From contig NC_092640.1 in assembly GCF_039555335.1 (NCBI RefSeq), positions 41,531,099 through 41,595,098 of the forward strand: a stretch of 64,000 bases of DNA, read 5' to 3'. Both the position numbers and the translations under genes were made by a program. The DNA is from Amphiura filiformis (Eukaryota; Echinodermata; Ophiuroidea; Amphilepidida; Amphiuridae). Shown piece after piece: positions 8,450-39,169 of this stretch (within the stretch, counting starts at the first letter, position 1; every line of letters starts with the position of its first letter). The notes beneath the pieces were generated by a model. That model did no database searches, was not told the DNA's origin, and worked only from the letters and a program-made list of their open reading frames with translations.

Positions 8450-11400
8450 ATGGAAAGCATATCAACTCTATTGCTAGTCATTTTTGGAGGTAAGTCAAAT
8501 TTTGATGGATTTATCAACGTTTTAAAATAGTTATTTAAAAAGGTCTTTTATTGTCCTAAAAGTATTAATTTAGTACTTTTTTGCTTTTCCGTTTCACTTG
8601 GTTTTTGCTTTCCTGTCGTTTAAAGAGAGCTGGTGATATGAGAGTCATGGACGTTTCCCCCCCTTATATCAATCTTTAAAATAGCATTTATAGAGCCGAT
8701 ACCAATCCTGTTGTGTGTCAGCTTTATCTGTCTACAATATTTGAGCGCAAACACCTTCGATACGCCTTATCCGGTGGGTACTCGGTTCAGTAAAGTAGGA
8801 TGGCCATTGTGTTCCGACCTGTTTAATAGTTTTAAACGCATAATGGGCTGAAGGACATCCGACTAAGGCTAATGACATTAGCCTGTGACTGACCTTTGTA
8901 CGGTCAGCGAGCATACATACGCCATGGTCATCTGCTTTTAGACTGCCTCTACGATAGTCTCCTACACAGCCAGTTTGTGTCAGTCGGTCTGACACTCGTC
9001 GATCCTGTATGTTCGTGATAGCCACATACAGTCTGGCCCGAGACTACCTCCACGAGGGTCTACGCTGCGCTATTTAAAATCTGAATTTTGGTCACTTTTT
9101 CAGCTCAAGACGCACGCTAGTTTCTCAAGACGCTAGCTAACGACGATAATATCCGTTGAACATATATGTTCAAGTGCAAGGAACCAGATCTGGTTTCTTT
9201 ATACGAAATCATTTACGGGAGATATTCATCATTTTCTACCCCGGTATCCAAAGATTTATCGTCTGAATATCAATCGTGCATAGCATATTTACGTGTATCG
9301 ATCCCGTGTATTCATTTCAGTGTCTCTGGTTGTATAATGTAATTATTAACCGGGCGATGTCGGTGTGCGACAACGAATGCCGCTGTGAACAAATTCCATC
9401 CCATTTTGCTTGCTTGATGTTTGACGTCATTCTCCCGCAACGGTTAATACCTATCCGTTAGATGCGTGGTAATATTTGCATGAAGATATTGGTATAGCAA
9501 TTAATGATGGACTCTCCATTACTGCAATTATTACCTCCTACTTCGTACATAATTTATTGAATAGCTGAGTGATTAAGAATGTGATGAGCATTGTGCATGC
9601 ATGCATGCATGACACACAGCGTATAGGTTTTTAAAATGAAATAATTAAAAATTAGCCAAATGCCACTTGGCTAAGGAATGAAATAACGGACGGTGCTTGG
9701 GCAAGAGCCTTTCAGTCACTGCGTTTTCACAAAAAGTAACAAAATCTACCGAATAAAAAACACATAAGCATAAAAGATGCCAAATTGTGGGATAGGCTTT
9801 TACGACGGGAGTTCATAACAATTACTGGGTTTAATAGCTCGCCCTCGACAAGTTTAGAACTGGCAAGCTTTCGTCAGGAGTAGCACTGATTTCTTCAGGA
9901 CAAAGTACCTAATAAAGAGACATGTAGGCCGCCCTTGCCTACTGACATGACTGATGGCTCTGAAAAGAGCCGTTCACTGAAGACTGCCCCTTGGCAACAG
10001 AGGACAAGCAGATCTCGCCTATCTGCTAAATTTAAAGGTTTGGTGGCTCTGAAAAGGGCCGTTTACTGAAGACTGCCCTTGTCAACAGAAAACAAGCAGA
10101 CCTCGCCTATCTGCCGATGCAACTGCGGAGTTGAAAAATAGTATGTGTGTCTTCATCCTTTTTCGAACTTGGTCCCATTTAGAAATTCTCATTTTAATAT
10201 AAAAATATGCAATTTGTATCGTTTCGTAACCACTTTCAATAAAATTATGGCCCGTGATTGTCGACAAGGTCCGCAGGCAAATTATTATATCGATCATTTG
10301 ATGTTAATAGTGTCTACTCATTGTATGGTAGTTAAACGATTGCACTTTAACAAACATGTTGCTTCACTGTTTGTTTGTTTGTTTATGTTGACCGATAGAG
10401 AGCGATACTGATCGATAAAGCAGTTACTACCTGGCCTGAAAGAGTGACTGATTGTAGACGCCACCTCATCTGAGACGAATATTCGTCTCAGACCTGCATC
10501 ATGACCCGGAAGTTTCCAGTCCATGTTTTTCGGTACCACTTCTCCTTTATTATGTTGTAGTCCACAGAGTCAAAAGCCTTTTCAATTTCTAAATCGACTT
10601 TGAACTGAAATTTCTTATGTTATTTTATCGCAGTGTTTTCCATAAACTCGTCAAAAGGCCACGTATGTTTACTGATAAAAAGACCCAACCAAGCAGGTGA
10701 ATTGCAATGGTCTCTTTCACGCAAAGAACGATGTTATTGTCAGCGCGTGGTAGCGCCTGTTATTTTAAGCGACTGTAGGAATGAGAACCCTGGAAATGAG
10801 ACACTCGACAGTTTGTGGTATACCAATGATCCCGATCCTCTAGTCTTCAGAGATAACTGGACGGTTGAAAAACTGGATGAGTTATTAGAAAGAACTGGCT
10901 TTTGTGGTAAGTTTATATAATTTACTCTCCAAAGGTAGTTTTATAGTTTGTGGAAGTAGCGTCGGGCATATAAGGCCAAATAAAAAAATAAACATGTTTC
11001 ACGTCCCCTCCCGCTTCCTTTTTTGAGGTTTCCTGAAATATATTTTTATTTTTTGAAATTCACTTATAACTTTTCAAAAAAATATGTCTAGGAAGTTGGG
11101 ATGCTTTCTGTAGCCTTGTTAAGATACAAGAAACATTTTAGGAAGGTTTTGTGATCATTAGAGGGGGTGTAACTCTCATATCAACAAATAAAAAGGACCT
11201 CCTCCTTTTTCAGGCATTATTGTATGTACGCTAAAACAGCTCTAATTATGGGTATTTACATCAATTTTGCGATAAAAAATAGAAAATAAAAAGCCCCTCT
11301 TCCTCCTTTTTTGAAAACCCGGACGTGAAACATGTTTTATTTTTTACTTGGCCTAACCAACTTTTAAAGGCCAGTGACCCGATTGACAGCCTCATCTCCC

Positions 11401-14400
11401 GATATACCTTGTACGAGATGAAATATCATTATAATAGATCTTATTATTCTTTTTACCATTCTGAATTTTCATTTTCCAAATCTATGTATTTCCTAAGAAA
11501 TCGTGAAAAAACGTCGAATTGTGGTCACCAGCCCGGGGGTACTCGAATAAGAAACTGTGGTACCTGTGCCTACTGTAGTAGGACACCGGGGTCTATCGGT
11601 GGAGATTTTTGTCCAAAAAAGGTGTCATTTAGTGGTGCTCCAAGAAAATGGGGATCATTATGTGTTGGACGCTAAATATTGGGTGACATTGCTCGTGAAA
11701 AAATAACTTTCTGGGCAAAAAAATTTACTCACTTGTACTGGATTAAAATGAGGTATGGATTTTTTCAAAATGTAATAATTTAAGAACGGAGGGGTCAATT
11801 GTCGAGTTTTTAAAGATAGAGGTACGTGGTTATTGTTTTATTACTCAAATTGTGTTTCTTTGTGGGATTAAAATACTTAAAAATACCCTTTCAGAGACAC
11901 CTGTAGTAAATTCCAAATGTCCAACAAAGAACACGATCAAGACTATTGAGTAACAGCAGCATTAAAATTTCATGACAATATGACTACAAATAAATGTAAA
12001 TATTTTGCGAAATTTACTTATAGCTTAATAAATGCGTATCACTTGTTGAGAGTGAAATTATACAAAATAATGCACGCGTACTGAGATGTTGATGCGTCTA
12101 ATGCACTCCCCGTCAGGGCTCGTGCACTACGCATCAACATCTCAGTACAAATTATCACTAAAAATGTTGGAAAATACAAGCAAATACAAATGCATCAACC
12201 CACAAGAAAAATGAACGCATACGAAAGCACTGCAAGTAGTACAAGGAGTGCGCGCCCGTGCATATACAGGGTGTATCAAAATGATTGGTACTCATCAGCT
12301 TTGATGTTGAATGAAACGCCTGCTTCTTCCACATTTAACATTAGATCCTGTTGATATCTAGAGTTTTATCATGACCTTTTTATTTAAAAATAACATAATC
12401 TATAAATAAGGTGGATGTTATCCTGCATTTTGATGTGGCAGTCTTTGTCATGCTCATTGGATATTCATAGATACCAATCATTTTGATACACCCTGTAATA
12501 CAATTAATGCATGTTTTGCATTTTTCTAACGGTTGCCTTGATTGGTTCTCTCTATCCAAAAGGGTATGAATAGATAATGTTACTTAACGGCAACCATACC
12601 AGTTATACATTTCTACTTTTTTACCAAATACAGATATTGATGAGTGTGATTCTACCCCTTGTCAATACGGAGGGACATGTTACGATAAAATTGGTGGTTA
12701 CGTCTGCACATGCGCAAGAGGATTTGAAGGTGTCGTCTGTGAAATCGGTAGGCTGTTTTCGTTTCGTATCAGTGTTATTTCTATACATTGGTTCGCCTCA
12801 AGTTCTGTAGTGACGAAGGTGCGTATTTCGCTGGTCGCAGTATCGAATATTAATAGCGCAGTGTACACGCATGCGTACAAGGGCGGTTTGTCGGCCGCTA
12901 GCAGCGCAACCGTGAAAAAGCAATGACGTCACACCCGAACTTCAGGCACGGTTGTTTGATGGTATGTAAACCTACTTCATTTTAAAGTAAAAGTGAACAC
13001 TGATGGCGCTATCTTAAATCGTCTTTTCATCAAGGGAAAGACACTGGTAAAATGGCATTAGCCTTTTCGAGATATGGCGGACACAAAAGGATAGCACTGC
13101 ACGAAATGGATTAAGTCTTTTGAATTTGCCGGGTTTAACCCATATTGAAGACTGGCCTCGTATTGTGTACGCCATATCTCGAAAACGCTAATTAAAACAT
13201 CAGAAAAAGAGTAATAAATAGGAAGGACATTTTCAAGTAACCTTTTATCATGAAATGTAAGGAGTAACTAATAATTATTATTTGGATAAATCAAATTTAA
13301 TATATAAGTAAATAGCGCCCTCAATGTGTACACCATTATACTGTTTATAAACTAAAAATCACCACAAGCATGTATTACGTTATGATAATGTAATAGCCGA
13401 TAGCAAGGCATCGAACCATTCCAATTGTACATTATTACTTTTCTACAGATATTGATGAGTGTGCTTCTACCCCTTGTCAGAACGGAGGGACATGTAACGA
13501 TCAAATTGTTGGTTACGTCTGCACATGCGCAAGCGGATTTGAAGGCGTCGTCTGTGAAATCGGTAGGCTGTTTTCGTTTCTTATCGGTGTTATGATTGGT
13601 CCGTCTCAAGTTCGGTAGTGACGAAGGTGCGTATTTCGCTGTAATGTTAATCGCACACAGTGTACAAGCACGCGTACAAGGGCGTCTTGTCGGCACGCTT
13701 GTAGCGCAACCGCGAAAGAGCAATGACGTCACTACCGAACTTCAGGTGAACCAAAGAATATACCTTTTAAACCCTGTATACATAACATACAACAGTGCTA
13801 TTTATATAATATTACTTCTGTGCTTTTATATTATCATTTTCATTCTCTGACGTTTCTTAGTCGATGTAATTTCTGTACCTTATCCCAGACAAAACCTTGT
13901 GTACATAACACAGACCAGGGTTATTTCCATAATATTACTTCTGGGCTTTAATATAATTTTCATTTTCTGATTAGATACGGAAAATCCAGCAATTTTCAAC
14001 ATACCAGCAAACATTATACAAAGCACAGATACTGGTGCGTCTGGTGCTACAGTTTCATGGACGGAGCCAACTGCGTCGGATAACTCCGAATCTCAAACAC
14101 TGACCTCTACTCATAACTCTGGATCGATATTTCCGTTGGGTATCACCATTGTAAAATACACGTCTATGGACTCGGCGGGAAATTTTGTAGAGGAAATTTT
14201 TAGCGTGACTGTAGAAGGTATGAAGTGTGGCATTTAGTATACATTTAGAACAACAAAAACTATCTTTAAAATGCTTTAGATATCGTCATACGTTCAGTTA
14301 AATCTCGGTTAAATTTTATAGAGATGGCTTCCGCTGGCTTCTGCTCGGGTGCCGGGCGGTCCACAGGCGGGTGTGGTTGGGATCAGGAAAGTTGACTCAA

Positions 14401-17400
14401 CTTTCCTGTTGGGATCCATACCTTAGCTGATTATACATTACATGTAATATGATTATACATGATTATACATTACATTACATGATTATACATTACATGTAAG
14501 CAGTCAAGTTAGCTCAATCGATAAGGCGTTCGACTATAGTGCGAACCCTGGCGGTGCCTAGTACGCTCTCGTGAAAAATATTGAGTTAGCTTGAAATTCC
14601 CCTGGACAAGGAACTTACTGCTAATTTGTCTCGTTGTAACCCGTACGAAACTCGGGAAGCTGATCCTGGTTGCGAAAGTTATTTGTGGAATGTCGTACGC
14701 TCTTGAAGCAGCAAAGTCCCTGAATTGTTGTTTATTGGTTTATGGAATGAAGTGGGGCCGTAGTGGTCAGCGACAACCTGTAAAGTGGGCCGAGGCTGGT
14801 GGATCAACGTCTAGGCGTTGTGCCTGTGCGTAGCGCAATATAGGTCACTGCGCTTTTTTGTTTGTTCGTTCATCATGCTAATATCAGGCTTTTTATACAA
14901 CCATATATCCCGCGATACAACTTTCGTATTTTTACAGATAATGAGAGTCCAATTATTCATAATATACCAAGTGATATCACTGCATACACTGTAGACGGGG
15001 CACCAACGGCGTCTGTTACATGGACGGAGCCCAACGTAATAGATAATTCTGGACTCCAAACTACCCTGGTATCTTCTCATAATTCCGGAGCATTGTTTGC
15101 GGTTGGCACAACGACGGTGACGTATACGGCGACCGATAGTGCTGACAATATCGCTACTGCTGATTTTGGAATAACAGTCATACAACGTAAGATGATAATT
15201 ATATAATAAAGGTATTGTTTTTAGCCAGACACCTTTGTTTCATAACCATGAAGGTATAGGACATTTTTTTTTTTTGCTATAGCCCCCGAATGAAATTTAT
15301 TTAATTATGTTTGTACTCACTCAGGTAGCATTGTGTATGAATTTTACATCCGGACTAGAGGCTATTCTTTTTTTATGGGCATTTTAGTGTCTAAAATGGC
15401 CCAAAATGAGGGTTTTTCAATATTGCCGTCCATTTCTAATCGTCACCCCCATAGGCTTTACATGTAAAATAAAAAGGCTCGTAAAAATTTAATAGCCTCT
15501 AGTTCGGATGTAAAATTCACACAAAATGCTTTTTGAGTGATTACAAAGATAATTTAATACTTTTCATTCGGGGGCTATGTGGAATTTTTTTTTATGTATT
15601 CCTTGTACAATGACATTTCACAATAAAATGTCCATTGGAAACAAAGGTGCAGAGTCGACCAGTCTCGTTATTGCCATCCGATTGGTTCAAATACTGAGTG
15701 CACGTATTACGTCGATATGCGCGCGCTGAACCGTGTTATATCGTGTCATATCACACGGTTATAAACCAATAAGCATGATAAGATTGACACAGGAACTTTC
15801 TAAAGTGTTTAAGAATAGAAAATTAAACCCTTGATCTCAATACAAAATATTTACCGAAATTATTGTCACTCAGCTATTGTTACTACAGCATTCTTCATCG
15901 GAATGACCCCATCTAGTGTCGCGTGACGAAATGATGGGGTCAGAGGCATTTGGTAACTTGGAAGTGCCGCCGTCCTTATGGATGGTTGGTTGGCGCGAGC
16001 TCTGATGTAGATGACCTCCGCAACTCGGGCGCCCTATCCAAGAACTTTATTCAAGTCATCGTGATGACCTGGTGACTCCGTGGATAAGTTGGATGACCTT
16101 GGACGAAGTGGAGTTCAGACGTCTGTTTTCAAAATATCTGGTTCTGAGAGAACGTTCAATCCGGGGGGACTCGACTTTGGAACGGAAGTGACGGGGATGT
16201 GCCGACAGCAGTTCGAATCTAGGTGTCTTTCGGTGAGAGCCTAGACACCAAAAAAGGGGGTCTTTTGGTGAGAAGGCTGGTTAACACCGCAAAACCTCGT
16301 CTACACGCATACGCATATAGAGTGCTTCTGATGAAAGCTAAATTATTCCAGGCGCCATTATGGAATTAGAGCAAATAAATTACAGATCCAAGCATATACA
16401 AACATTGTAAGACCAATCTATTGTATTGGTATATTTACGCATGTTACGTATTTTAAATTTCATCAAAACACTATAATATGCTTACGAGGTTTTACGGTAT
16501 GTTACCAAAAAACGGGTTTTTTCCGTAATACTGTGAAAATATTTTAGTCAAAATATAAAAATTGATACAAAATTGTCAAACATCATCAAAATTTAAAGTT
16601 TTTTGAACAATTGGAAGAAAAATAATGAAAAAACGGGGTCATTCGGTGAGAGATTATCAGAAATTTGTCCAAAAATCTTGAAAAAAGGGGGTCTTTTGGT
16701 GACAGGAAAACAAAAAAGAGGTCATAGGGTGAGAGGGAGTTCAGTAAAACAAAAAAGGGGCCATTGGGTGAGCGGGATTTCAAAAATGGGAGTCAATGTG
16801 GCCACACATCCCCGTCACCCATTTTTAGTGAGTGCATCCCCGGGCGTTCAGTGCTTCTGATGTATTGTGATATGTCCCTAGCACGGAATCATATACACTG
16901 GACCAATGACGTCCTGTTTCTCTGTTTTGTCTTTTGATCCCACTCAAAATTGATGCAATGTCCTAGTTGAACTTTATTCTAAACGGAAAGGTTTCTATAC
17001 AAAAACGATTCTCTTATAAACCATCATGCGCACAGTTTCCACTTCGATACACCTGAGCACACATTTTCGTCCAAGATCTCTCAAGCAAGCAGTGAATTGT
17101 CTCCGCACAGTCTCTGATTACACTTCACGGTTGAGTACATAGCAATGTAAGAGCTGTGGAGCTTCTAGCTGAAAAATGGGCCTCTTTGATTGGTTTTTGT
17201 CGAAACCTCAAGTGTTCCCTTCATCCAATCAAGAATTTTTTTTATATCAAACGAAAACTAACACTTCCCCCCAAAACACTTTTCGTCACTAGGTCAACAG
17301 ATAACGCAATTCAATGTCATAGCAAGGTGAATGTGGAAAATCTGTTGAAAACTACCTATCCAAGCACATTTTTTGACCAAAATGAAGGTTTTAAAAGTCA

Positions 17401-19791
17401 AAACCTCTGTTCCTTACAATATTTTTCAAATTTTATATCATTAAATGAAATGGCCCCTTATATTTTCCATAAAAGTGTCACTAGAATGAGCAATGGCCAA
17501 TTCTCTTTAAATTGCAAATCTTGTGCAAAAAGTTACTATTTTTGCCTGTTTTGTCATACGGTTGTAAATTCAATGAACTATGACTTTGCTAAAGAGCGCT
17601 TACAAATTAATATGAACCTGTACCTTAACCACTTGTTAACAATGTTTCCACTCTGTAGCGTTTTGGGGTACGTGGGGTTCGTGGAGTGACTGCAACACAG
17701 AATGTGGCTGGGGAACTCAAACAAGAACAAGAACGTGTGAGATGCAGGGCACTGGTTCATGTCCCGGATCAGCTAGTGAATCTACATCATGTATTTTACG
17801 TGAGTATTCCACGCAACATATGAGCTATAAGCCATCGTATTAATCTAATTATTGGGAACTTTTAAGAAGATCGTAGTTCACTTCATTACGGCACAGTACA
17901 AACTAGAAACAAAATTTGTTTTTAATTAAATGAATAGTAAATATAGATTATTTTGAACATTTTTTCATAGTGAATGTTCACTTTCTCTGAATAGTGATCT
18001 CTTCTAACTGCAACGAATTCGTACAATTATTATACCCGAATGTATAATACCTGAATATGGTTAAATATCACTAATTTGAGCTAGACAGTGCTTGAAAAAA
18101 GAAAAAAGAGAGGGACTATTTTCTTGAACATGTTGAATGGTATCTGAAAAAAGGTGCTCAAAAATCACTGAAAAAAACCAAGCTGTATTGCCAAAATATG
18201 CCAATTTCAGAGTAACCTGCAGAAATGACATGTTTTCTGCCAATATTTTGCAGTTTTGATAAAAAGTTCCGCCAAATTAATCCGCTGCACATCGATTTCC
18301 CCCACTCAGGCTGTGTACTCCCATTTAGTCCCAAAAACAAAAGAAGAAAAACAAGCTCAGGTCATCATAATTTGAAATTTTTGGGGATTCAACTTCATAT
18401 GCTCTAGTTGATAATAATGTCCTTTTCACTGTGAGAGTTAAATGTATGAGCAAATCGTGCTTGAAGTTACCTATATGTGATGCGATCAAGCAAAATCAGG
18501 GAATAACTCGGGAATATTGATTTTGAGATATAGCCAAAGAAAGAAAATAATTATTTCCTTTAAGTTTCCTGTTGTTTTGGAAACTCTTTAATTACTCTTA
18601 TCTTTGGAAACGGTTGTTCAATTTCAATGGGGTTTTCTGCAAAATGCAGCTTTATAGATGCTTTTGACTATCCTATAAGAAACTGAAAATTTGATATTTT
18701 CGAGTTCCGACTGATTTTGCTTGATCGCATCACATATTTCAAATGAAACTGTGTTATATAAACGAATCCAATTTCACGCATTCCTACACCTCAATGGCAG
18801 CCATATCTGGGTCCCCGTTGGCTTCATCCCACCTAAAATGTAAAATGATGAGGCCTTAACGGGAATTTTAAACTGCATTCCATCACCCGTGTTGCACGTA
18901 GACAAAAGAATGATGAACGTTTATAACATAATAATACAATATAAAATAGATTTTAAGCGGCTTTAATCCACCCAATTAGGCAGTCACAACACCAGTTTGG
19001 TGCGAAGGGGGACCCAGTAATGGCCGAAAGAATTCTGACCATCACTTGGCTCGTTGGATTCGTCTATAGAATTAGTGGTATTGAACCATAATAATAGCCC
19101 AATAATACATTATAAGGGAGTGTTCATAAATACTTGAAAAATAGGGAGATCAAAAAAAATTGGGTCCTAAAGAGGGGATCAAAAAAATTCTATTCTTAAT
19201 AGGACCTTAATAAAATGTTATGGTAAAATAAAATAAAATGTATAATATGAGTACATATTATACATTTTATTTCAAGCTTCAAATCAACAAAATTTGCGCA
19301 CTTTAAAATTAAAATGTAACACTATAACTCCAATGTATAATAACGCCAAATGGTCATTTTAGCTAATGAGTTAATAAAATATATTTTTGGTTTGTTTTGT
19401 AGGACATGAAGGTGGGAGGCGGGATTAAAAAATAGACCATAAAAAGTGGGATAAAATATTCAGGGGATCTAACCTTTTTTGATGTCAGAGGTTCCAACTT
19501 TTCCAACCCTGCCACCAAAGTATTTATGAACACTCGATAAGAGCAGAGACACTTTAATACACTTTGCAATTAAAACAAACGAGGAACCTTTATATAACTT
19601 TTTCAGGAGACTGGTGTCGAAAGAATGGACGTTGCGGACCTTCTTATCCATCTGATAATGGTCAAGAGGCTAAATGTGTTGGTCATTGTTGTTCAACCCG
19701 TTCTTGGTGTGGGTCAGGGTCTCATTGCACCTCGCTGTTGTACAAAGATTATAGATGTTGCACTGGACTCACTTGTACTGGACCGTGTTGA
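8450..19791 (+). CDS. Mosaic gene A: signal, 5-Cys domain, 2 EGF, 2 HYR, TSP1, hevein-like
   Basis: Predicted spliced CDS of 452 residues from eight exons: 8450-8489, 10634-10906, 12634-12747, 13449-13562, 13975-14217, 14938-15186, 17659-17799, 19607-19791. Every junction has AG/GT and is phase 1. Exon 1 encodes a hydrophobic leader ([13 protein letters not shown]). Exon 2 is a 91-codon module with five Cys and no family that I recognise. Exons 3 and 4 are calcium-binding EGF modules (DIDEC start, CxDxxxxYxCxC hydroxylation motif). Exons 5 and 6 are HYR domains ([24 protein letters not shown]) without the usual cysteines. Exon 7 is TSP1 with the WGTWGSW C-mannosylation-type motif. Its sixth Cys is supplied by DWC in exon 8. 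The rest of exon 8 is a 10-Cys domain with the hevein core CCSTRSWCG. Secretion and glycan binding are inferred; the exon chain is read directly but has no transcript support. The gene is the first of three tandem paralogues. Confidence 0.8.
8860..9372. repeat. Interspersed repeat, copy 2 (within gene A intron 1)
   Basis: Similar to 4690-5180 as described there. The conserved part runs 9073-9372. It lies in the first intron of gene A and has no equivalent recognised in genes B or C, so it probably inserted after duplication. Confidence 0.65.
9945..10066 (-). promoter_or_regulatory. Two histone-type mRNA 3' stem-loops in tandem
   Basis: Read on the minus strand, 9955-9970 is GGCTCTTTTCAGAGCC followed by ATCA, an exact match to the metazoan replication-dependent histone 3' stem-loop. 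A second copy about 90 bp upstream on the minus strand (about 10048-10063) reads GGCCCTTTTCAGAGCC followed by ACCA. It has one mispair in the stem but the canonical flank. The surrounding 90 bp (gaagactgcccc, acaagcag, ctcgcctatctgc) is also duplicated. No histone coding sequence was found on the minus side within the window, so these are orphan copies, possibly a histone 3' end relic. They lie in intron 1 of gene A. Confidence 0.55.
12079..12147. repeat. Short perfect inverted repeat
   Basis: The arm tactgagatgttgatgcgt at 12079 is mirrored by acgcatcaacatctcagta ending at 12147, giving a 19-bp stem with a loop of about 31 bases. It sits in intron 2 of gene A. It is probably a MITE core. Confidence 0.75.
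12265..12498. mobile_element. MITE with ~25-bp terminal inverted repeats and TA flanks
   Basis: The left end tacagggtgtatcaaaatga is mirrored by tcattttgatacaccctgta at the right end, and flanking TA dinucleotides are compatible with a Tc1/mariner-type target. The 230-bp interior has no coding. Located in intron 2 of gene A. The superfamily assignment is inference from TIR and TA only. Confidence 0.75.
12790..12955. mobile_element. Short MITE after EGF exon 3 of gene A, copy 1
   Basis: Ends are inverted: cctcaagttctgtagtgac near 12790 against cacccgaacttcagg near 12950. The interior contains aatgacgtcac and gcgtacaagggcg words. A second copy (13605-13746) follows the next EGF exon in the same relative place, showing that exon and MITE duplicated together. 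Confidence 0.7.
13605..13746. mobile_element. Short MITE after EGF exon 4 of gene A, copy 2
   Basis: Ends are ctcaagttcggtagtgac and gtcactaccgaacttcagg, nearly perfect inverted repeats. It is similar to 12790-12955 throughout. No coding. Position immediately downstream of the second EGF exon. Confidence 0.75.
14500..14850 (+). repeat. tRNA-headed SINE (family also at 58.0 and 59.8 kb)
   Basis: The head has an A box-like ttagctcaatcgataagg and a B box-like gcgaaccctggcgg. The body from 14570 to 14850 (atattgagttagcttg, gtccctgaattgttgttta, tggaatga.gtgggccgtag, gtgcctgtgcgtag) recurs at 59755-59960. The head recurs in better condition at 57995-58062. Located in intron 5 of gene A. The part of the body carrying a 'gtaacccgtacg' block is absent from the 59.8 kb copy. 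Confidence 0.75.
15260..15592. mobile_element. Foldback MITE in gene A intron 6
   Basis: Terminal inverted repeats: gctatagcccccgaatgaaa near the left end and tttcattcgggggctatgt at the right. The complementarity continues inward (gcctctag, tacatccgga). About 330 bp, no coding. Confidence 0.75.
16240..16830. repeat. Degenerate 'ggggtcttttggtgag' repeat tract
   Basis: A word of the type aaaaaagggggtcttttggtgag recurs with variation at about 16250, 16620, 16680, 16715 and 16755, separated by AT-rich spacers, and ends near cacatccccgtcaccc. It is part of a larger insertion in gene A (roughly 16160-17617) that is missing from the matching intron of gene B. Confidence 0.55.
16987..17617 (+). repeat. 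Interspersed element shared with the 3' flank of the LRR receptor
   Basis: This stretch matches the reverse complement of 43905-44488 over about 580 bp (aaaggtttctatacaaaaac, gcagtgaattgtctccgcac, gagctgtggagcttctagct, ttgctaaagagcgcttacaa). Both copies share an open frame with a [15 protein letters not shown] segment, but no family was recognised. In gene A it ends exactly where paralogue B shows its SINE head, so it replaced most of that SINE. Confidence 0.75.
18473..18737. mobile_element. MITE with 26-bp terminal inverted repeats
   Basis: Left end atatgtgatgcgatcaagca, right end tgcttgatcgcatcacatat, continuing with aaatcag/ctgattt. About 265 bp in intron 7 of gene A. No coding. Confidence 0.85.
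18756..19069. mobile_element. MITE with 'acgaatcca' inverted ends (half copy at 26985-27070)
   Basis: Left end tataaacgaatccaa, right end ttggattcgtctata. The left part (cattcctacacctcaatggc) recurs at 26996-27040 in intron 2 of gene B as a truncated copy. Confidence 0.65.
19114..19537. mobile_element. MITE with 'gagtgttcataaatact' ends
   Basis: gagtgttcataaatact at the left end is mirrored by agtatttatgaacactc at the right. About 420 bp with GATC-containing internal words. Located directly upstream of the last exon of gene A. Confidence 0.8.
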
Positions 19792-25400: not shown

Positions 25401-28400
25401 GAACCAAAAGAGTGAATATTTATGTGATCAAAAACTAGTAAAAATCACTCCAAAAGAGTAACACTTTCACTCTAAAAGAGTTAATTTAACTCCAAAGAGT
25501 AAAAAAAATCGTTCCAAAAGAATGACATCTGCACTCTTCAAAGGACCACTCCAAAAAGAGCTGTCTCTCTCATGACTCCTTAATTAGAGAGTGGTCATTT
25601 AATTCTTTTGGAATGATTTTGCACTTTTGGAGCTATGAAATTCACTCCTTTTAGAATTTCACTCTTTTGAAGAGTGAATTTCACTCTAAAAGAGTGATAC
25701 TTTAGGAAGCCACGAGAGGGATAACTCTTTTTTGAATGATCCTTTAAATGGCTCCTTAGAAAAGTGAAAAAGTCACTCTTTTGGAGTGAAATGCACTCTT
25801 TCGGGAGTGAAAATTGCACTCTTTTTGAGTAATTTTCACTCCTTTTGGAGTGAATAAATACTCCGTCTTTTAGTTCACTCTTTTACATTTCTGGTTATAT
25901 CAAACGCTGGAAATTACAAAATGAATACTGCATGTACGTAATTAATTTACATACTCACATGCCGGCAATTCAGTCGTTACACAAGGGAATGTGATTTATT
26001 ATTTGTGCCACAGCTCATGCTGACCGATAGAGATCGATAAAGCGGTTACTACTTGGCTTGATAGATTTGAGACTATTGCACTCCGCGCCCGTGCAATAGT
26101 CCATTTTCCATTGCACTCACGCGAGGCTACCATAGCAACGCTACAGACGGGAGCGTATAGCGGGCACGGTGATCACCTCGACTCGCCAATTATAGGTGTT
26201 GATATCGCTTTTAAATTAAATACAGTTTGTAATATTTATTTAACTTATTCTGTTTTCCTGGTGATTTACAAAATTAAGTGGAAGAAAAAGAATTTTTATA
26301 TGAGTTATATAAAACAAATAATTTAATGTTTTTATTCGTTCAATGGAAAGAGTATTTTCATTCGGTGAAATTTGAACAGTTCCATTCAGCGAGGCTTTCC
26401 ATTCAACTCGGCAAAGCCTCATTGAATGGAACAGTCCATATTTTACCTCATGAAAATATTCTTACCATTGTATTCATAAACATTCAATATTTGTATAATA
26501 GTTCAATAGTTGCAAGCCTTATACCTTTTAGTTTCAACTTTGAACAGAAATTTCTTGTATATTTTATCGCAGTTTTATACATAAGCTCATCAAAAGGCCA
26601 CGTATGTTTGCTGATAAAAAGACCCAACCACGCAGGTGAATCTCAATGGTCTCTTCCACGCAAAGAACGCTGTTATTGTCAGCGCGTGGTAGCGCCTGTT
26701 ATTTTAAGTGACTGTAGGAATGAGAACCCAGTGAATGAGACTCTTGACAGCTTGTGGTATACCAATGATTCCGTTCCTCTAGTCTTCAGAGATAATTGGA
26801 CGGTTAAAAAACTGGATGAGTTATTAGAAAGAACTGGCTTTTGTGGTAAGTTTATATAATTAATACTCAATAAACAGGGCCGGGGTTATCTTTTTGGGGC
26901 CCTGTGCCAGGCCAAATTTGGGAAGGCATGTGCACGCAAGTGGCCAAGTTTTGGGTTTATACAAATAGGGGCCTACTATAGACGAATCCGACGAGCCACA
27001 TTCCTACACCTCATTGACGGCCATAGCTGGGGCCATCCATCCATTTATGTGACGCCAGTATCATAGGCGTGCAGTGTTTACCGCTTCCATGACGCGGCGC
27101 AAGTGCTACGTGCTCCGATGCGCTCACGATAGTGAGCGTCTTGGATCGCAATCCAAACGAACTAAGCTAGTTTGGCGCCATATAAAATCGACATGGCAGC
27201 GGAATTTAGAGGGCGACGAGCATATTTTGTTTTGATTTTACCAGGACATTTGCGTGAGAAAAATGTCAATTTCAGACTATTTTAGCCCAAAATGAAGGTG
27301 AATTTTACTATAAAAAGGGCCAGTGCCATATTTTGGTCCAAAACATTGTGTTTTCAGGCTAAAAAGGAACATACAAATGTTGGGGCTCTGAGCCCGGGCC
27401 CATCTGGTCCAATGGTAAATCCGGCCCTATCAATAAAGGCGGGTGACCCAAGGAAATGTGGTTGATTGTGTGTGGGAACGCTAAAATTGAGTGTCATTGC
27501 CTCTGAAAAGCATCTTTCCGGGCAAAAATTTGCCCAATTTATGAATAGGCATAAAGGCCTGGTTCGCAATTCTATGGAAATTTCACATTATGCAGAATCC
27601 ATATACGATTGTTTCGCACATGAACGATTAGGTCGAAAGAGCGGTATTGTATCAATTCTATGATTGCACACATACGCAGACATGACAAGTGATGAGTACA
27701 GCCTACTTGTAGTGTAGTACAATACATTAAAAAAGGGTAAAAGTGCGTGGTAGTTGCTTTATTACTCAATACATGCATGTTTCTTTATGGCATGAAAATA
27801 CTCAAAATGCTCTTTCAGAGACACCCTGCAGTAAATTCCAAGTGTCCAACAAAGAAAACAATCATGACTATTGAGTGACAGCAGCATTAAAATTTCATGA
27901 CAATGTTCAAAATTCATCAACTACAAATAAATGTAAATATTCTTTGGTGTTTATTTGCCATTTTGCGATTTTTTTTAAAGATTATGTTACTTAACCGCCG
28001 ATATCAAGGCATTGATTCATTCCAGTTGTACTACTTTTCTACCAAATACAGATATTGATGAGTGTGCTTCTACCCCTTGTCAGAACGGAGGGACATGTTA
28101 CGATAAAATTGATGGTTACGTCTGCACATGCGCAAGAGGATTTCAAGGCGTCGTCTGTGAAATCGGTATATTGTTTAGGTTTCTCAGTAGATGTTATTTT
28201 CTGTACCTTATCACACACACAAAACCTTGTGTACATGACACAGAACATTGTTATTTCCATAATATTACTTCTGGGCTTTAATATAATTTTCATTTTCTGA
28301 TTAGATACGGAAAATCCAGCAATTTTCAACATACCAGCAAACATTACACAAAGCACAGACACTGGTGCGTCCGGTGCTACAGTTTGGTGGACGGAGCCAA

Positions 28401-30787
28401 CTGCGTCAGACAACTCACTATCTCAAACACTGACCTCTACTCATAACTCTGGATCGATGTTTCCGTTGGGTCTTACCATTGTAAAATACACGTCAATGGA
28501 CTCGGCGGGAAATTTTGTGGAGGAGATATTTAGCGTGACTGTGAAAGGTACACCAATGTGTGACATTTAGTATGCATAATCTTAATGCTTTAGATATCGG
28601 CATGATTATGTTGTTTGTTCAGTTTTGATATGGAGCTAAACTTATACGAAATCCACTAGCCAGTTATTTGGTTTTAGAAATCATCCATATACATGGCCAA
28701 TGGATCTCAAAGTTTCACGGGGAAAGACTCGCTGAATACTCGAACAGAAATAGACGGATAACAAAATATACCTTCACAATAATCTTTAATTCCGCATCAT
28801 CAAATCAACAAAGTATCACAACATAATATAGATTACGGATTGAGTACGCTTGCGGTCCGTCTCCTTCAATAACTGGCTATCGACTACACAAGGTCGGAGG
28901 CGAGCGTGATTGATGATAGAAAAACCGCGCAGCGATATATTTAAATAGCCTAAGTGAAAAATAGAAAGAAAATAGCGCCATAACAGTTTGCTCTGGCAGT
29001 CTCGGTTGCTTATTTAGGGACGTGTTCCGCTGGCTTTTGCTGGCTAGCCGGTGATCGACAAGCGGATGAGGTTTGAAGCTATACCATAGTTGATTATACA
29101 TTACATGTAATCATTTGTTCGTTCCTCAGGCATTATATACAACTTTCATTTATTTTTTACAGATAATGAGAGTCCAATTATTCATAATATACCAAGTGAT
29201 ATCACTGCATACACTTTAGACGGGGCACCAACGGCGTCTGTTACCTGGACGGAGCCCTACGTAATAGATAATTCTGGACTTCCAACTACCCTGGTATCTT
29301 CTCACAATTCTGGAACATTGTTTGCAGTTGGCACAACAACAGTGACGTATACGGCGACCGATAGTGCTGACAATATCGCTACTGCTGATTTTGGAATAAC
29401 AGTCATACAACGTAAGATGATCAATAGAAAATCTCTTGACCTCAATACAAATTTTTACCTCCGAAATTGTAAGCTGTTGTTACTACAGCCATGACAGCTG
29501 GACATCTGGTGTCGTGTAACATGATGTTCGAGTCATGAACCTTAGGTAACTTATAGTGCCCCCTTTCTTTTTCAGAGATACTTCAATAGTTGGTACGTGC
29601 CCTGTTAGATGGCCTCCGTAATTCCTCTCTAGCTCTCAAACATGTCAAAGTGTCAGGCTCCCTGTCCAAGATTTTAACATTGTCCAAGTCAACGTGATGG
29701 CCTGGTGACTCTGTTACCATGTTGGAAGACGTGGAGCTGTAACGTCTGTACTCAAGACATCTGGTTCTAACATGTCTAAGAGAACAATGTATTATTGTGA
29801 TTGAAATATAAAAAGTAATCCCGCCCGGGAATCGAACCCTGGACCTCAGGTTTACGAGACCTGTGCCGTAACCACTTGTTAATATTTCTATTCTGTAGCA
29901 TTTTGGGGCACATGGGGTTCGTGGAGTGACTGTAACACAGAATGTGGCTGGGGAACTCAAACAAGAACAAGAACGTGTGAGATGCAGGGCACTGGTTCAT
30001 GTCCTGGATCAGCTAGTGAATCTACATCATGTATTCTACGTGAGTATCCCCACAAAAATATGAACAAAGGTGTTGCTCTAATCGTTGGAAGTGTTGAGAA
30101 TATCCTAGTTCACTTCATGACGTTAAGCATGTTTACACCCTAGAAATAAAATTCGTTTTCGAAGAAATGAATAGTACAGTAATGTGGATTATGTTCACCT
30201 TTTACTAGTGATTATTCACCTTCTCATACAGTAATTCGAAATAACGATATCATACGAACTATATATAAACGCTAAATAATTTAGATGCATTTGTAGGATT
30301 GTAGATTATAAAAAATATACATTCGCCCTTTGAACGGATCCGCCAACGACCAAAACGAGGTTTCTTTCTGCAAATGCATGCGCAAAAATGTGCATTTTTG
30401 TTTCTCGCGCTTTTTTCAACGCATAAGCGGTAATTAAATCATGCGTTTGACAGGCGTACGCACACACTGCACACACTTTGCGAGTAGAACCTCGTTCTGA
30501 GATGACCGTACGATTGGCGAATAGTCGAGAGCGAAAGGCACTTTAATACACTTTGCAATTAAAACAAAATAATGATGAACATTTATTATTTCTTTTCAGG
30601 AGATTGGTGTCGAGCAGATGGACGTTGCGGACCTTCTTATCCATCTGTAAATGGTCAAGAAGGTAGATGTATTGCCATGTGTTGTTCAACTGTCGCATGG
30701 TGTGGGCAAACCAGTACACATTGCAGCTTTCAGCTGCACAGAGATTATAGATGTTGTACTGGACTCACTTGTCCTGGACCGTGTTGA
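22456..30787 (+). CDS. Mosaic gene B: signal, 5-Cys domain, EGF, 2 HYR, TSP1, hevein-like
   Basis: Predicted CDS of 417 residues from seven phase-1 exons: 22456-22501, 26573-26845, 28052-28165, 28305-28547, 29163-29411, 29899-30039, 30600-30787. The leader is MESMSTSPILLVILG. Exon 2 is 273 bp like that of A and keeps all five Cys. There is a single calcium-binding EGF exon where A has two. The HYR exons are near-identical to those of A (243 and 249 bp). The TSP1 exon is 141 bp. The last exon supplies the sixth TSP1 Cys and then a 10-Cys domain with CCSTVAWCGQTSTHC, matching the CC-x5-C-x6-C spacing of hevein. A candidate AATAAA at 31895 is conserved in position relative to gene C but is now displaced by a retroelement insertion. 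The product is expected to be secreted. No transcript evidence is available here. Confidence 0.8.
22657..23008. mobile_element. Foldback MITE family 1, copy 1 (gene B intron 1)
   Basis: Ends ggtactacaccccctgatca and aaggggtgtagtaccacctt are inverted, and complementarity continues for well over 100 bp (aggcaaggaatcc.., ggattccttgcccc). Four copies occur in the window. Confidence 0.9.
23208..23702. mobile_element. Foldback element, ~490 bp
   Basis: aaacatctcaaaaagtaact at the left end pairs with agttacttttttgagatgtt at the right. Inner arms also pair (acaaatctgtaaaatgcgtt with aacgcattttacagatttgt). No coding. Lies between two family-1 foldbacks in intron 1 of gene B. Confidence 0.85.
23789..24146. 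mobile_element. Foldback MITE family 1, copy 2
   Basis: Left end agggagtactacacccctga, right end aagggtgtagtaccccctt. It keeps the internal 'tgcatttttctcaaaa' and 'cccctataatatacat' arms but has a diverged centre. Confidence 0.85.
24406..24756. mobile_element. Foldback MITE family 1, copy 3
   Basis: Left end taaggtggtactacacccc, right end ggggtagtaccaccttaa. The interior is nearly the same as copy 1 (tgaggtacattctagcg.tac). Confidence 0.9.
25396..25885. repeat. Foldback of repeated 'CACTCTTTTGGAGTG' palindromic words
   Basis: About 490 bp in which short words such as cactccaaaagagt and actcttttggagtga recur every 20-40 bp in both orientations. The first half is rich in one orientation and the second half in the other, so the whole can fold as one hairpin or many small ones. 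No coding. Design parallels 7183-7686. Confidence 0.75.
29815..29885 (-). repeat. tRNA-like SINE head abutting the TSP1 exon of gene B
   Basis: Minus strand: acaagtggttacgg (A-box side), anticodon-arm-like ggtctcgtaaacctgaggtc, then a B box gggttcgattcccgg. The head starts only about 15 bp from the TSP1 splice acceptor, so its 5' end sits beside the polypyrimidine tract. Gene C has the equivalent at 38140-38203 and gene A retains only accttaaccacttgttaac. The insertion therefore predates the duplications. Confidence 0.7.
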
Positions 30788-33190: not shown

Positions 33191-33219
33191 CTTTAAATAC
33201 AAACTGAACCCGCCGGGAT

Positions 33220-33345: not shown

Positions 33346-33891
33346 AATTCCAAGGCCCATGTAGATCCAAGGCCCACAGAAGTGCTGAACCTGCAAAAAC
33401 AACAATGATCAATGGGAATACAAAAGTGCACTAGAACGAGTGATGAAAATCACTGCATATAAGCAGATACGATAAACCAAACAACCAATGTAGGTACAAA
33501 AACAGGCAAAGTTCGATGGCCAAAAATTGCCACAAAAGTGTCAGGAAAACAGTACACTGGAAGTGACGAAAATCACTGTGCACATAGCAGTCAAACAACA
33601 CCAAACAGAAAAAAACCCACAACCGACGTTTCGAGCAGATAAACTGCTCTTCTTCAGGGACAGACAACAAAATATAGAACAAACAACAAGAACTATATAC
33701 TGTAGTTTAAAAACAAATTCAAGTCAAAAATTGAAGGCAAGTTCAAATTGAACTAAGTAGTAAACAAGACAGCAAACTCAGAGCAAAATAAGCTGTGTCT
33801 TCACTTAATGGGAGCGAGTTCAGTAGTGAACTGAAAGGTTGATTTGAGAAAGTGATGTGATGTAGCACGAAACGTCATTTTAGGTATATAT

Positions 33892-34579: not shown

Positions 34580-35399
34580 CATCATTTTACCAAATACTCA
34601 ATTGGATTTGTTTACATGAAATTTTACAAATTATATCTATTGACAATCCTGCCCGGACAATCCTGATGAACTTATTTAGTTAATCTGTTGAAGAACTTCT
34701 ACACTTTATGCTTGTATACTTTACTTATGGAAGTTCTAATGTACTTGGTCAAAAACAACTTATCGCGAAACCAGTAACATGTGTTTTAGGTGGGTTAGAT
34801 GTTAAGAATTGGTAGATATTCTGCTGTAAATTTAGGGATTAGGTTCTAAACAAAGTTTAATATGTACTATATAGAAAATAGAGTGTTGCCATAAGAAGAG
34901 AATTAGAATTTTCATCACAAATTGTCAACATTAATTTTGAATTATTTCTCCCAATAAGACTGATTAACCGAATATAAATCTATAATAATTATGATATATA
35001 TACTGGGCATCGACAAAGGTGGAATGGAGGACATTGACAATCGTGATTCTTTTCTTTTTTTTTTGGCATGAATGTTCAAGAGATCAATGTATATAAAATG
35101 ACACCAGGTGGCATCAATATTCCTAATGGCTAAAATAACAAAAACGTAACTCGGATTCTTAATTATCTACTGTTTTTAATAAATTAAATCGCATCGTTCC
35201 ATATCTTAAAACCATAGCAACCGCCAAAATTATGAAAATTGCTAGTCATTATGAAAAAGTAACATATATCTAGTTTTCAACATTAAACAAGCACTGCAAC
35301 GTCGTACTTAAATAAAGGATAAAATTGGGAGTCGTATTTTCGGCTCTTTTTATGACGCTCGCACTGTGTGGAAATTGAAAAATAGAATTGAAAGTTATA
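34580..35399. other. Upstream region of gene C
   Basis: AT-rich with no gene recognised. The ATG of gene C is at 35400. Its 5' flank shows only short resemblance to those of A and B. Confidence 0.5.
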
Positions 35400-38300
35400 A
35401 TGGACTTAAACGTTTCTTTAATTCTAACAATCATCATTGGTAAGTTTGTATCTTATTAAAAAACTTTTTCTTCGTTCAGTTAGTCTCATGCAGAAATTAT
35501 AAATAACACCCGTTATGTGCTTAAAACTGATAAACGTAAATATCCAGAGAAAATACCTTCCTGGATAGGTAGTTGTTAGTCTCAGTTTCAAGCCAAAAAG
35601 GCAATCGTCAGACGACACGGTGAAATGCTTTAGTGGGACTACCATCTCTTGGGAATGTGAATAAATCGAGGGTTGACAAACAGAAGGCCTTAACTCAAAA
35701 AGTGCCTTTTTGAGAAAAATGAGTAAAAATAATATTTTGCATTGAAATGTGACCAAGTATTATTGTGCTATAGATGCAATAGGAAGTTGATTGAGTTAAG
35801 GCTTTATGATTTTAAGAATCTGTGGGTATTACAGATTATTTTGGTACCAAAATCTCAAAATGCCCAAAAGTGAGTTAAGGCCTTCTGTTTGTCAACCCTC
35901 GAAATATACATTCCATGGTGTCAACACAGCCAAAGTCTATTTCATGATTTTATATCATCCAGCAAATCAATAAAATACGTAAGTACACTTATATTTTCAA
36001 AATACTTTTCTCCAATAGTTTATTTTTAGCGACAGGAAATCATTAAGGGATCGGATACCAACGTTTGAACGGTATTTTTGTGGGACATTGCATTGTGTCC
36101 TTCTGACATCAAATAAGTTTGAAGTTTTTTGAAAAATGGCAAATTATCAAAATTTCTATTTCTTTAAACTTTGATATTTTACAGTCCTCGAAATAAACTT
36201 TAGAAATCTAAAGATATGTACTTAAAGTGTAAATAGCTGGGAGGTAAAACCGTCCATTATATGAACCTTTTGATCATCCGTATTGAAGATACACAGTTGT
36301 TCCTCCCCCCTAGACCTAAAAATTTAAGGTTGAGGTCAAAACCATTTACCCTAAAATGGCGTAAAAATTTAAGGTTGTAGTCGAAATCCTTTACCATTAT
36401 AGCTTCTAAATCGACTTTGAACTGAATTTTTTTTATTATCGCAGTGTTTCCCATAAACTCATCAAAAGGTCACGTATGTTTTCTGATAAAAAGACACAAC
36501 CAAACCGGTGAATTGCAATGGTCTCTTTCACGCAAAGAACGCTGTTATTGTCAAGGTGTGGTAGCGCCTGATATTTTAAGTGACTGTAGAAATGACAACC
36601 CTGACAGTTTTTGGTATACCAATGATCCCGGTCCTCTAGTCTTCAGAGATAATTGGACGGTTGAAAGACTGGATGAGTTATTGGAAAGAACTGGGTTATG
36701 TGGTAAGTTTATTCAATTTTTTATTTTTATTTATATCATTCGGCCGAAGCCAGGCTAAACCCAATAGTGCTCAGAGGCTACTAAATTCAAGGGATGCCTC
36801 CAGATATGACGGGACAGGGATATGGGAAGAGGTCCGATTTTAGAAGCAGGAGGAAAACCGGAGCACCCGGAGAAAAACCTGCGAGGACGAGCATGGATCG
36901 GCAACCAAACTCACATGTGGCACCGCGGGGAATTGAACCCGGGCCACAGTGGTGAGAAGACCACTGCACTAACCCGCAATTAGTGCTCACCAAGGAGGTT
37001 AATAGCTATCTAGGCGACAACCCGTCAGCTTTATCGTAATGATAACAGCTGTTAATGCATTGATATGTCTTGACATAAAAAAATGTAACTTTACACCTGC
37101 TGTTTGTGGAAGTAGCGTTGGGCATATCCATCTTTTAACGGCCCGTGACCCGATCGACCGCACCCCCGATTTACCTTATTGTAAGCGATGAGATATCATA
37201 TAAATATGTCATATTATTCTTATTATCTTCCTGAAATTTCATGTTCCAAATTAATGTATTTCCGAAGAAATTCTTATTTTAAAAAAATGTAAAATTTTGG
37301 GGTCCACAGTCGTTTACAATGGAAATATGCTCCAATTTTAATCAAACTGGTCTCAAATCGTTCCCTTGAGAAAAGTTGCATTTCTTGGATTTTTTACATA
37401 GGTAACGTCACAAAATAGGTCAAGGTCAACAGGGCTCAATGGAATTCGATCATCTTTGTCATGTTACCAAGGTAACAATCCACCTGAGATATGGCAAACT
37501 ATTCTTTTTAAAATATTTCTGCAAGCGGAGCAATATGAAACCATTTGTATCAAAATGAGAGCATTTTTCAATTTTTGTCCCCCTGTGCAATCCAAATTTC
37601 GACAGTTGACCTTTTCCGCCATAACTCAAAATTGAAATTTGAAATTTTGTGACTAATTTTGCATTTTTCTCAAAAAGTAACTGCTCACTGGTAACAAAAG
37701 TTATATACATGTAGGTATATTAGGGGCAAGGAATCCAATTACTTCACTGAAATTTCAGTGATTCAAGACAAGTGGTTTAAGAAATGAGGTACATTCTAGC
37801 GGTACCTCTTTTCTTATCATAAATAACGTACTGCTTGTCTTGAGTCACTGAAATTCCAGTGTAGTAACTGGATTACTCGCCCCTATAATATACATAACTT
37901 TTAATTATCTGTGTGTTATTATTTTTTTTTTTTATTTCAATAGTCACAAATTTATCAAGAGGTGTAGTACCACCTTAAAGAAAATGTCTAAAATGGTTAA
38001 AATGAAGAGTCATTATAATAGGATATAAATGTTGTAATATTGTCAATGTTACAGGAAAAACAGTACGGAAATTAATATATTGAACACAATTTCCACCAGG
38101 TTCGCCGTCGCAAATAATAAAGGAGACAAATAAAAAAAAGTGACTCCCGGAATGGAACCCACGACCTCAGGTTTATGAGACCTGGGCCTTAAACACTTGT
38201 TAAAATGTTCTCTTTCAATAGTGATTTGGGGCACATGGGGTTCGTGGAGCAACTGTAACGCAGGGTGTGGCTGGGGAACTCGAACAAGAACCAGAACCTG

Positions 38301-39169
38301 TGAAAAGCATGGCCCTGGTTCGTGTCCCGGATCAGTTAGTAAAGATAGTGAATCATCATCGTGTATTCTACGTGAGTATTCCCCACAAAATATGAAGAAG
38401 CCAATTTATTGCTGTAATCGTTGGAATTTATAAGAATGATCATAATTTGCTTCATAACGGTACATGTACAAATTAGAAACAACACTCGTTTTCAAAGAAA
38501 ATGATAGTAACATGGATTATGTTGTTCTCCTTTTACTAGTGATTATTCATCTACTTATAGATCGCTTGACATCATTGTTTATCAAAAAAGGCGAGGGACT
38601 GGTCTATCGATACGCTTGAACGAACCACTACACTGCTCAATGGCTTTCTTGTACTATATGAAACGTGGTGGGCGATTTAAAATGCACATGCCCTGAGCAA
38701 ACTACGATGCGTACGCACACTGCAGGGCAAAGAAAAATGGAAATTGCCATTATTCGAGCGCATACTGCCGGGCAATGACGTAACAATTCTTGTTGTTGCG
38801 CAGTGCGCGGCTCTGACGGATACTTGCGCGTTATACATTTCCATATAATAATTGTTATTTTTATGTCAAGTGGTCTATAGAGATTTGAACTGATTTCGTA
38901 GGGGGGTTGGGTGGAGAGAGGTGGGTATACTCGTAAACGAGAAGCAATCTTTATCGAAGAACCTTTATTATAACTTTTCAGGAGACTGGTGTCGTGCCGA
39001 TAAACATTGTGGACCTTCTTATCACTCTGCCAATGGTCAAGAAGCCAAATGTCCTGCAGCATGTTGCTCAACACGCTCATGGTGTGGGCAAACCAATGAC
39101 CATTGCGGCTACCAGCTGTACAGAGATTATAGATGTTGTACTGGACTCACTTGTTCTGGGCCGTGTTGA
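35400..39169 (+). CDS. Mosaic gene C: signal, 5-Cys domain, TSP1, hevein-like (no EGF/HYR)
   Basis: Predicted CDS of 211 residues from four phase-1 exons: 35400-35439, 36445-36702, 38222-38371, 38982-39169. The leader is MDLNVSLILTIIIG. Exon 2 keeps the five Cys of A and B but is 15 bp shorter, lacking the GNETL-type insert. It splices directly in phase to TSP1 ([10 protein letters not shown], 150 bp, with three extra residues before the last cysteines). The final exon reads DWCRADKHCG and carries the [15 protein letters not shown] hevein core plus RCCTGLTC and the terminal GPC. No EGF- or HYR-like exon was found between 36703 and 38221, so the loss (or ancestral absence) looks real. AATAAA at 39449 is a candidate polyadenylation signal, about 280 bp past the stop. 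It is the most compact member and the only one without a large repeat load between its TSP1 and last exons. Confidence 0.8.
35667..35902. mobile_element. MITE with ~32-bp perfect terminal inverted repeats
   Basis: cgagggttgacaaacagaag at the left end and cttctgtttgtcaaccctcg at the right, with gccttaactca/tgagttaaggc continuing inward. 236 bp in intron 1 of gene C. No coding. Confidence 0.9.
36043..36305. mobile_element. Foldback family 2, truncated copy
   Basis: Retains the left-arm words taagggatcgg, tttttgtgggacatt, agtcctcgaaataaacttta and gtaaatagctgggaggtaaa. The right arm is missing. In intron 1 of gene C. Confidence 0.7.
36718..36990 (-). repeat. tRNA-derived SINE in gene C intron 2
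   Basis: On the minus strand the head at about 36990-36905 has ggttagtgcagtgg (A-box-like) and cccgggttcaattccccg (B box). It is followed by a body with gcaggtttttctccgggtgc, tccggttttcctcctgc and a 3' end near tttagcctggcttcggccg, with an A/T-rich tail at 36715-36740. The body is of a type common in invertebrate tRNA SINEs. Confidence 0.8.
37645..37976. mobile_element. Foldback MITE family 1, copy 4 (gene C intron 2)
   Basis: Shares the arms cactggtaacaaaagttata, aggggcaaggaatccaatta and acctcttttcttatcataaa with copies 1 and 3, and ends gaggtgtagtaccacctt. The leftmost 20-odd bases of the left arm are missing. Confidence 0.85.
38135..38203 (-). repeat. tRNA-like SINE head abutting the TSP1 exon of gene C
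   Basis: Minus strand: caagtgtttaagg, ggtctcataaacctgaggtc (resembling an elongator tRNA-Met anticodon arm) and gtgggttccattccggga (decayed B box). Orthologous in position to 29815-29885 in gene B. Confidence 0.65.

Follow-up and report, generated by a model that had tools for sequence, protein, structure and literature searches.

Hevein domains, familiar above all as lectins of plants and fungi, have also been described in animals. In the accessible text on amphioxus PGRP3 (PMC4610682), such a domain has a crystal structure, binds chitin by assay, loses this binding in a W53A/W55A double mutant, contacts its ligand through Ser51, Trp53, Trp55 and His62, and raises activity on Staphylococcus aureus peptidoglycan about five-fold; its authors place this plant-like domain in no other chordate and propose horizontal transfer from plants, because no other chordate example was known to them. 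In nematodes, hevein-type domains occur fused to GH18 chitinase domains, in two cases together with LysM, according to the accessible part of PMC5297725, which distinguishes 6C, 8C and 10C classes of hevein-like peptides. Among echinoderm proteins of the hyalin type, the sea-star footprint protein Sfp7 comprises two EGF domains and a single hyalin domain, and there are three hyalin repeats in Sfp5, in the accessible text of PMC9382459. Here we analyse a window, by which we mean the whole stretch of 64,000 nucleotides of contig NC_092640.1 (positions 41,531,099 to 41,595,098, forward strand) of the brittle star Amphiura filiformis, in which positions 8450-39169 of the plus strand hold three tandem genes (g1, g2 and g3) with a C-terminal domain related to the hevein-like domain of PGRP3. 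We put the probability that they constitute a family of small secreted glycan-binding proteins, with a predicted hevein-type head on a scaffold, at about one half.

Exon structure of the three tandem genes

Comparison of the window with itself reveals three repeated blocks on one strand, with identity mostly confined to exons and short flanks, and the reading of splice sites resolves these blocks into three same-strand genes. All 16 introns are of phase 1 and have GT-AG ends. Paralogous exons share 77-96% DNA identity in BLAST alignments that include short flanks, and intron sequence is mostly unaligned between paralogues at the BLAST threshold used.

The first gene, g1, has 8 exons and encodes 452 residues. 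Exon 1 (8450..8489) holds the start codon and the hydrophobic core of a signal peptide, with a GTAAGT donor in phase 1, and its region is 80% identical to that of g2 exon 1. Exon 2 (10634..10906; AG acceptor, GTAAGT donor, phase 1-1) encodes an orphan module with five cysteines and is 92% and 87% identical in DNA to the g2 and g3 copies, respectively. It is followed by two EGF exons delimited by splice sites (12634..12747, matching PF00008 and PF07645, and 13449..13562, matching PF00008), two HYR exons (13975..14217 and 14938..15186; PF02494), a TSP1 exon with TSP1 cysteines 1-5 (17659..17799; PF00090) and a last exon (19607..19791) that ends in the stop codon and encodes the likely sixth TSP1 cysteine and a hevein-like domain of ten cysteines.

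The second gene, g2 (7 exons, 417 residues), keeps this order with a single EGF: signal peptide (22456..22501, from splice-site reading), five-cysteine module (26573..26845, from self-comparison and splice sites), EGF (28052..28165; PF00008), HYR (28305..28547 and 29163..29411; PF02494), TSP1 (29899..30039; PF00090) and last exon (30600..30787), with the same likely division between TSP1 and the hevein-like domain. The third, g3 (4 exons, 211 residues), consists of signal peptide (35400..35439), five-cysteine module (36445..36702), TSP1 (38222..38371; PF00090) and an equivalent last exon (38982..39169). The middle thus comprises four modules in g1 (two EGF, two HYR), three in g2 (one EGF, two HYR) and none in g3.

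Public annotation bears out the joining of exons throughout g3 and in the 3' part of g2. Public protein P0002, named 'uncharacterized protein' at NCBI, is identical to the g3 model over all 211 residues, including the short first exon, which had been one of three candidates in a scan for donors and hydrophobicity. Public protein P0003, an NCBI 'hyalin-like' protein of 222 residues, corresponds to g2 from within the first HYR exon, through the second HYR, TSP1 and last exons, to the stop. The g1 chain and the 5' part of g2 are predictions from the sequence itself. Our protein searches, which for g3 covered some 5.8 billion proteins, detect relatives that have exact 5-residue words in common with the query within set length ranges (combined, about 116-791 residues). 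With g3 as query, two of 73 candidates reached E <= 10, both from A. filiformis; the N-terminal region of g1 returned none of 81 at the same threshold, and the TSP1-hevein region of g2 returned one of 15 at E <= 0.001, which consists of TSP1-type repeats. Within the searches made, the family thus appears to be known so far from this brittle star only.

The assigned modules score above the curated Pfam cut-offs. HYR occurs twice in g1 (E 1e-32) and twice in g2 (1e-31), EGF twice in g1 and once in g2, and TSP_1 in all three (E 5.2e-6, 4e-6 and 9.9e-5; 27.0, 27.5 and 22.9 bits against a cut-off of 21.6, for g1, g2 and g3). Each TSP1 copy has the WxxW motif twice, with RTRTRTC or TRTRTC in the alignment. 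The TSP1 exon holds five cysteines; on the usual TSP1 cysteine spacing, the sixth is most likely the first cysteine of the last exon, an assignment by spacing that lies outside the Pfam-aligned stretch. The N-termini are hydrophobic (11-residue means of 3.0-3.2), and past residue 30 no 19-residue stretch exceeds 1.42. A scan of g3 against NCBIfam gave no match.

The sequence-only reading of this DNA had already proposed three same-strand exon chains, copied in tandem, that encode secreted proteins with a common but variable EGF/HYR middle. Splice sites, Pfam matches and the public proteins for g3 and the 3' part of g2 confirm the chains; self-comparison and the common exon structure support tandem duplication, and secretion is supported by N-terminal hydropathy, the one line of evidence used for it. 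The EGF/HYR middle is present in g1 and g2 and is not a property of g3, which has neither module. No decayed EGF or HYR is visible in the g3 stretch by tblastn or blastn, and a g3 with decayed exons of these kinds is rejected on that ground.

Two further observations concern the TSP1 exons. Just before those of g2 (29800-29880) and g3 (38130-38210), a stretch resembling a tRNA, which may belong to a short interspersed repeat, is recognizable by eye, and before that of g1 only its tail is; ARAGORN calls no tRNA in these stretches, and Rfam and tRNA scans gave no matches. Inverted copies of one element, 88% identical, occupy 17042-17614 and 43910-44457, and the g1 TSP1 exon begins some 45 bases downstream of the end of one of them.

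Relation of the last domain to the hevein family

The last domain has ten cysteines, the first of them only five residues beyond the putative sixth cysteine of TSP1. The cysteine framework of the hevein core (C ... C ... CCS ... WCG ... C) is invariant in the three copies and can be aligned to the PGRP3 structure 4z8i. A single-sequence search of PDB with phmmer matched seven entries, including two of amphioxus PGRP3 (E 2.7e-5, for the g1 domain against 4z8i, and 9.2e-5). A profile built from the three copies matched eight entries, with PGRP3 as the only significant ones (E 1.9e-6 and 5.7e-6); the other six, not significant singly (E 0.13-1.8), are lectin-C, lectin-D and agglutinin-isolectin entries, which we take to be hevein-type plant lectins. 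The accessible text of PMC4610682 classes them likewise.

Likeness from cysteine content alone is rejected by shuffling all non-cysteine residues with the cysteines fixed: the observed score was reached in 0 of 5000 shuffles for each copy (z 7.6-12.1), the PGRP3 stretch in this test being the one from the phmmer alignment and so chosen by the match. The equivalents of the PGRP3 ligand positions Ser51, Trp55 and His62 are invariant in the three copies. Taken together, these comparisons leave a relation of the last domain to the hevein family well supported.

The relation bears on the history proposed for the amphioxus domain. The echinoderm domain is closer in score to amphioxus than to any PDB plant chain searched, and with a relative present in an echinoderm, common ancestry within deuterostomes becomes a testable alternative to transfer from plants.

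Constraint between copies and the orphan module

For the five-cysteine, TSP1 and last exons taken together, the ratio of nonsynonymous to synonymous substitution rates (dN/dS) is 0.31 between g1 and g2, 0.26 between g1 and g3 and 0.41 between g2 and g3; for the HYR exons of g1 and g2 it is 0.17. The exons common to all three genes are under purifying selection, and on these values they therefore resemble functional coding sequence and not frames that arose by chance. The TSP1 protein sequence is identical in g1 and g2, with five silent changes beneath it. No silent difference separates the second EGF of g1 from the EGF of g2 in about 24 sites, and the two may have undergone recent exchange. 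Of the exons, the last is highest in dN (0.17-0.21, with dS of 0.41-0.69). Within it, amino-acid changes cluster in the lectin core (16 of 27 columns vs 7 of 34; Fisher p 0.003, with segments picked after looking). The proportion of silent differences (pS) is raised there too, at 0.37-0.61, and exceeds that of amino-acid-changing differences (pN, 0.25-0.31); on these grounds we make no claim of positive selection on the lectin core.

The five-cysteine module spans about 87 residues, the g1 copy sharing 91% identity with that of g2 and 88% with that of g3. Two copies scanned alone against Pfam gave a best E of 0.17, and, like the last domain, the module falls short of every family cut-off; a single sequence matched nothing in PDB up to E 10, and the profile gave four PDB matches with unrelated names (best E 0.43). 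Structure prediction from a three-row alignment yielded a weak model (predicted local distance difference test score, pLDDT, 65), for which Foldseek returned 11 matches at E 4.0 to 9.9, so that we assign it no fold, and the only relative in the protein searches was g3's own public protein. The module had been called unknown from the sequence, and this is borne out by Pfam, PDB and the protein searches, in which it has no relative beyond this species. Constrained between copies, it is a candidate for a new domain family.

The module also makes the cysteine total odd in every protein: 33 in g1, 27 in g2 and 21 in g3, from 6 in TSP1, 6 in each EGF, 10 in the tail and 5 in the module. It follows that each chain has at least one cysteine that is either unpaired or in a bond to another chain, and the proteins are perhaps oligomerised through it.

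Between exon 2 and the first EGF exon, g1 and g2 have in common a further conserved block of about 160-200 bases, 81-86% identical, which finds no match in the g3 stretch. Each copy contains a putative alternative last exon on the plus strand: in g1 at 11895..11994 (block 11822-12004), with an acceptor, a short frame and a stop at 11951-11953, up to AATAAA; in g2 at 27819..27931 (block 27743-27941), with a stop at 27872-27874, likewise up to AATAAA. The short frame is in phase with exon 2 and ends after 19 residues in g1 and 18 in g2, AATAAA following 36 and 52 bases past the stop, respectively. The added residues include one cysteine in both copies, which would bring the total with exon 2 to six. 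A one-base indel separates the two frames, so at least one of them is without coding constraint. Exon 2 spliced to the block may give a small secreted peptide; the block could itself serve as an alternative last exon, or it could be a relic of the end of an older gene with a single module, to which the mosaic became attached.

Candidate functions and comparison with described systems

In the reading to which we give about even odds, the hevein-like domain would be the binding head, most likely for glycans that contain N-acetylglucosamine (chitin, peptidoglycan or host glycoproteins), and TSP1 with the optional EGF and HYR modules would act as a stalk or scaffold that anchors the head on matrix or on the surface of cells. 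The odd cysteine of the N-terminal module could link chains by disulfides and thereby raise avidity. Copies would have arisen by tandem duplication, and the length of the middle would have changed as symmetric phase-1 exons were gained or lost. Sugar binding, oligomerisation and role, be it to recognise microbes on surfaces or within the coelom or to serve as a matrix lectin, are what we infer from these features. Copies with four, three and no middle modules would form a natural series on what the scaffold adds to a lectin head.

Several results weigh against this reading. The equivalent of Trp53 is Arg, Val and Arg in g1, g2 and g3, so the four ligand residues of PGRP3 are not all retained; with this residue replaced, binding may be weak, altered or lost, and full hevein ligand chemistry in the three copies is not supported. 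Chitin_bind_1 (PF00187) scores 12.4 bits in g2 (E 0.2) and 15.4 in g3 (E 0.023), below the cut-off of 27.8, and has no match in g1; the 58-residue amphioxus PGRP3 fragment itself reaches 22.4 bits, likewise under 27.8, which makes the Pfam cut-off a poor test for animal members. The remainder of the single-sequence PDB search consists of five chance matches to a viral protease (E 2.4-3.6). AlphaFold models the last-exon domain poorly from a three-row alignment (pLDDT 51; predicted template modelling score 0.29), too poorly for the model to test the hevein fold. The EGF comparisons give dN/dS of 0.81, 0.53 and one undefined value, with too few changes to show constraint, and no public protein for g1 was found at lengths of about 116-791 residues.

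These results bear unevenly on the overall interpretation of the sequence-only reading. Its description of the proteins as secreted, tandemly duplicated and hevein-like stands, the last on the PDB searches (profile E 1.9e-6), as does its ten-cysteine domain, whose count now excludes the first cysteine of the last exon. Glycan binding is still likely, though less so with one of the four ligand residues gone. 'Diversifying' applies in part only: although the lectin core is where amino-acid changes gather, silent differences are also more frequent there, with pN lower than pS.

A defence role is a plausible candidate; matrix binding and adhesion also fit and are real rivals. That the proteins are structural components of matrix or mucus, or tube-foot adhesives built on HYR, EGF and TSP1, with the hevein-like domain tying them to glycans or serving only as a disulfide-rich cap, is a tentative possibility. 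It draws on the hyalin and EGF domains of Sfp7 and Sfp5, the 'hyalin-like' name of the public g2 fragment, the strong constraint on the HYR exons and the ligand Trp gone from all three copies. However, HYR and EGF are not essential, g3 having neither; the members are small and unrepetitive next to hyalin; and 'chitin', 'thrombospondin' and 'TSP1' are absent from the main text, as accessible, of the sea-star paper (PMC9382459).

More speculative, and on balance unlikely, is an extended version of the glycan-binding reading, in which the proteins would be disulfide-linked secreted recognition proteins with a new animal lectin architecture, the hevein-type head would share descent with the amphioxus PGRP domain, ancestral to deuterostomes and not plant-derived in amphioxus, and the genes would also be able to end early at the conserved internal last exon, freeing the orphan module with six cysteines. 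Improbable, in turn, is a family of antimicrobial effectors whose tail would act on fungal or bacterial walls as plant hevein-type peptides do. The 6C, 8C and 10C peptide classes, the nematode domains with GH18 chitinases and the five-fold effect of the PGRP3 domain would suit such effectors, but Pfam finds no catalytic domain in the three proteins, and the tail is fused to a scaffold instead of being a free peptide. Misjoined or partly pseudogenised chains, representing separate genes or dead copies, are very improbable: the lengths searched yielded no public protein for g1 and the public g2 protein starts within the first HYR, but a public protein equals g3 end to end, and g1 and g2 retain all frames, splice sites and shared cysteines, with dN/dS well below 1 over most exons.

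Elsewhere in the window, two overlapping stop-free frames at 44488-49145 (minus strand) contain a long stretch of leucine-rich repeats, and the downstream frame has at its end a rhodopsin-type seven-transmembrane match just over cut-off. At 51701-52901 (plus strand) a frame that looks by eye like a membrane protein (no Pfam match) and a TIR-domain frame in another phase overlap; this is a candidate Toll-like receptor remnant, or there may be an unseen intron. The proximity of these receptor-type frames to the three genes is weak evidence of a common role. A tandem array with units of roughly 42, 120 and 227 bases lies at 1358-2495, and a protein-kinase-like sequence in two overlapping frames at 3981-4731 (minus strand), of which the scanned frame matches Pkinase at 20.5 bits, below the cut-off of 31.7.

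The sequence-only reading knew of no described animal family in which TSP1 is followed by a hevein-like module, and nothing contradicts this in the protein searches, within their 5-residue words and length ranges, or among the matches listed from the open-licence literature. Among those matches, mostly judged by title or abstract start, neither a TSP1-hevein fusion nor this three-gene family is reported, and 'hyalin', 'HYR', 'thrombospondin' and 'chitin' are absent from the main text, as accessible, of the A. filiformis genome paper (PMC11310086).

The closest described system is amphioxus BbtPGRP3 (BbtPGRP1/2; 4z8i/4zxm), the top PDB match, with which the family shares the GRCGP-YP opening in g1 and g2 (CGPSY in g3), the CCS--WCG--HC core and the Ser, Trp and His ligand positions. 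There the domain lies N-terminal to a peptidoglycan amidase, whereas here it is C-terminal, after TSP1, and Pfam finds in the three proteins no amidase family of the sort that chimeric proteins of the PGRP3 type have; here, too, the first ligand Trp is absent, and a CC-x4-C-x2-C tail stands in contrast to the short fourth disulfide loop of PGRP3. With the hevein/CBM18 family (PF00187), nettle agglutinin and pokeweed lectins the match is weak and lies in the core cysteine framework, but the domain falls below the Pfam cut-off, has ten cysteines with another tail and replaces one aromatic ligand residue. The nematode domains are likewise hevein domains in an animal, though joined to chitinases in the accessible text. 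Echinoderm hyalin-type proteins, including the sea-star footprint proteins, are likewise secreted and combine HYR with EGF; the accessible texts mention no hevein-like domain there, whereas here HYR and EGF are optional. Mosaic extracellular proteins and hevein-type lectins are thus already known kinds, and it is the orphan domain and the combination that appear to be new.

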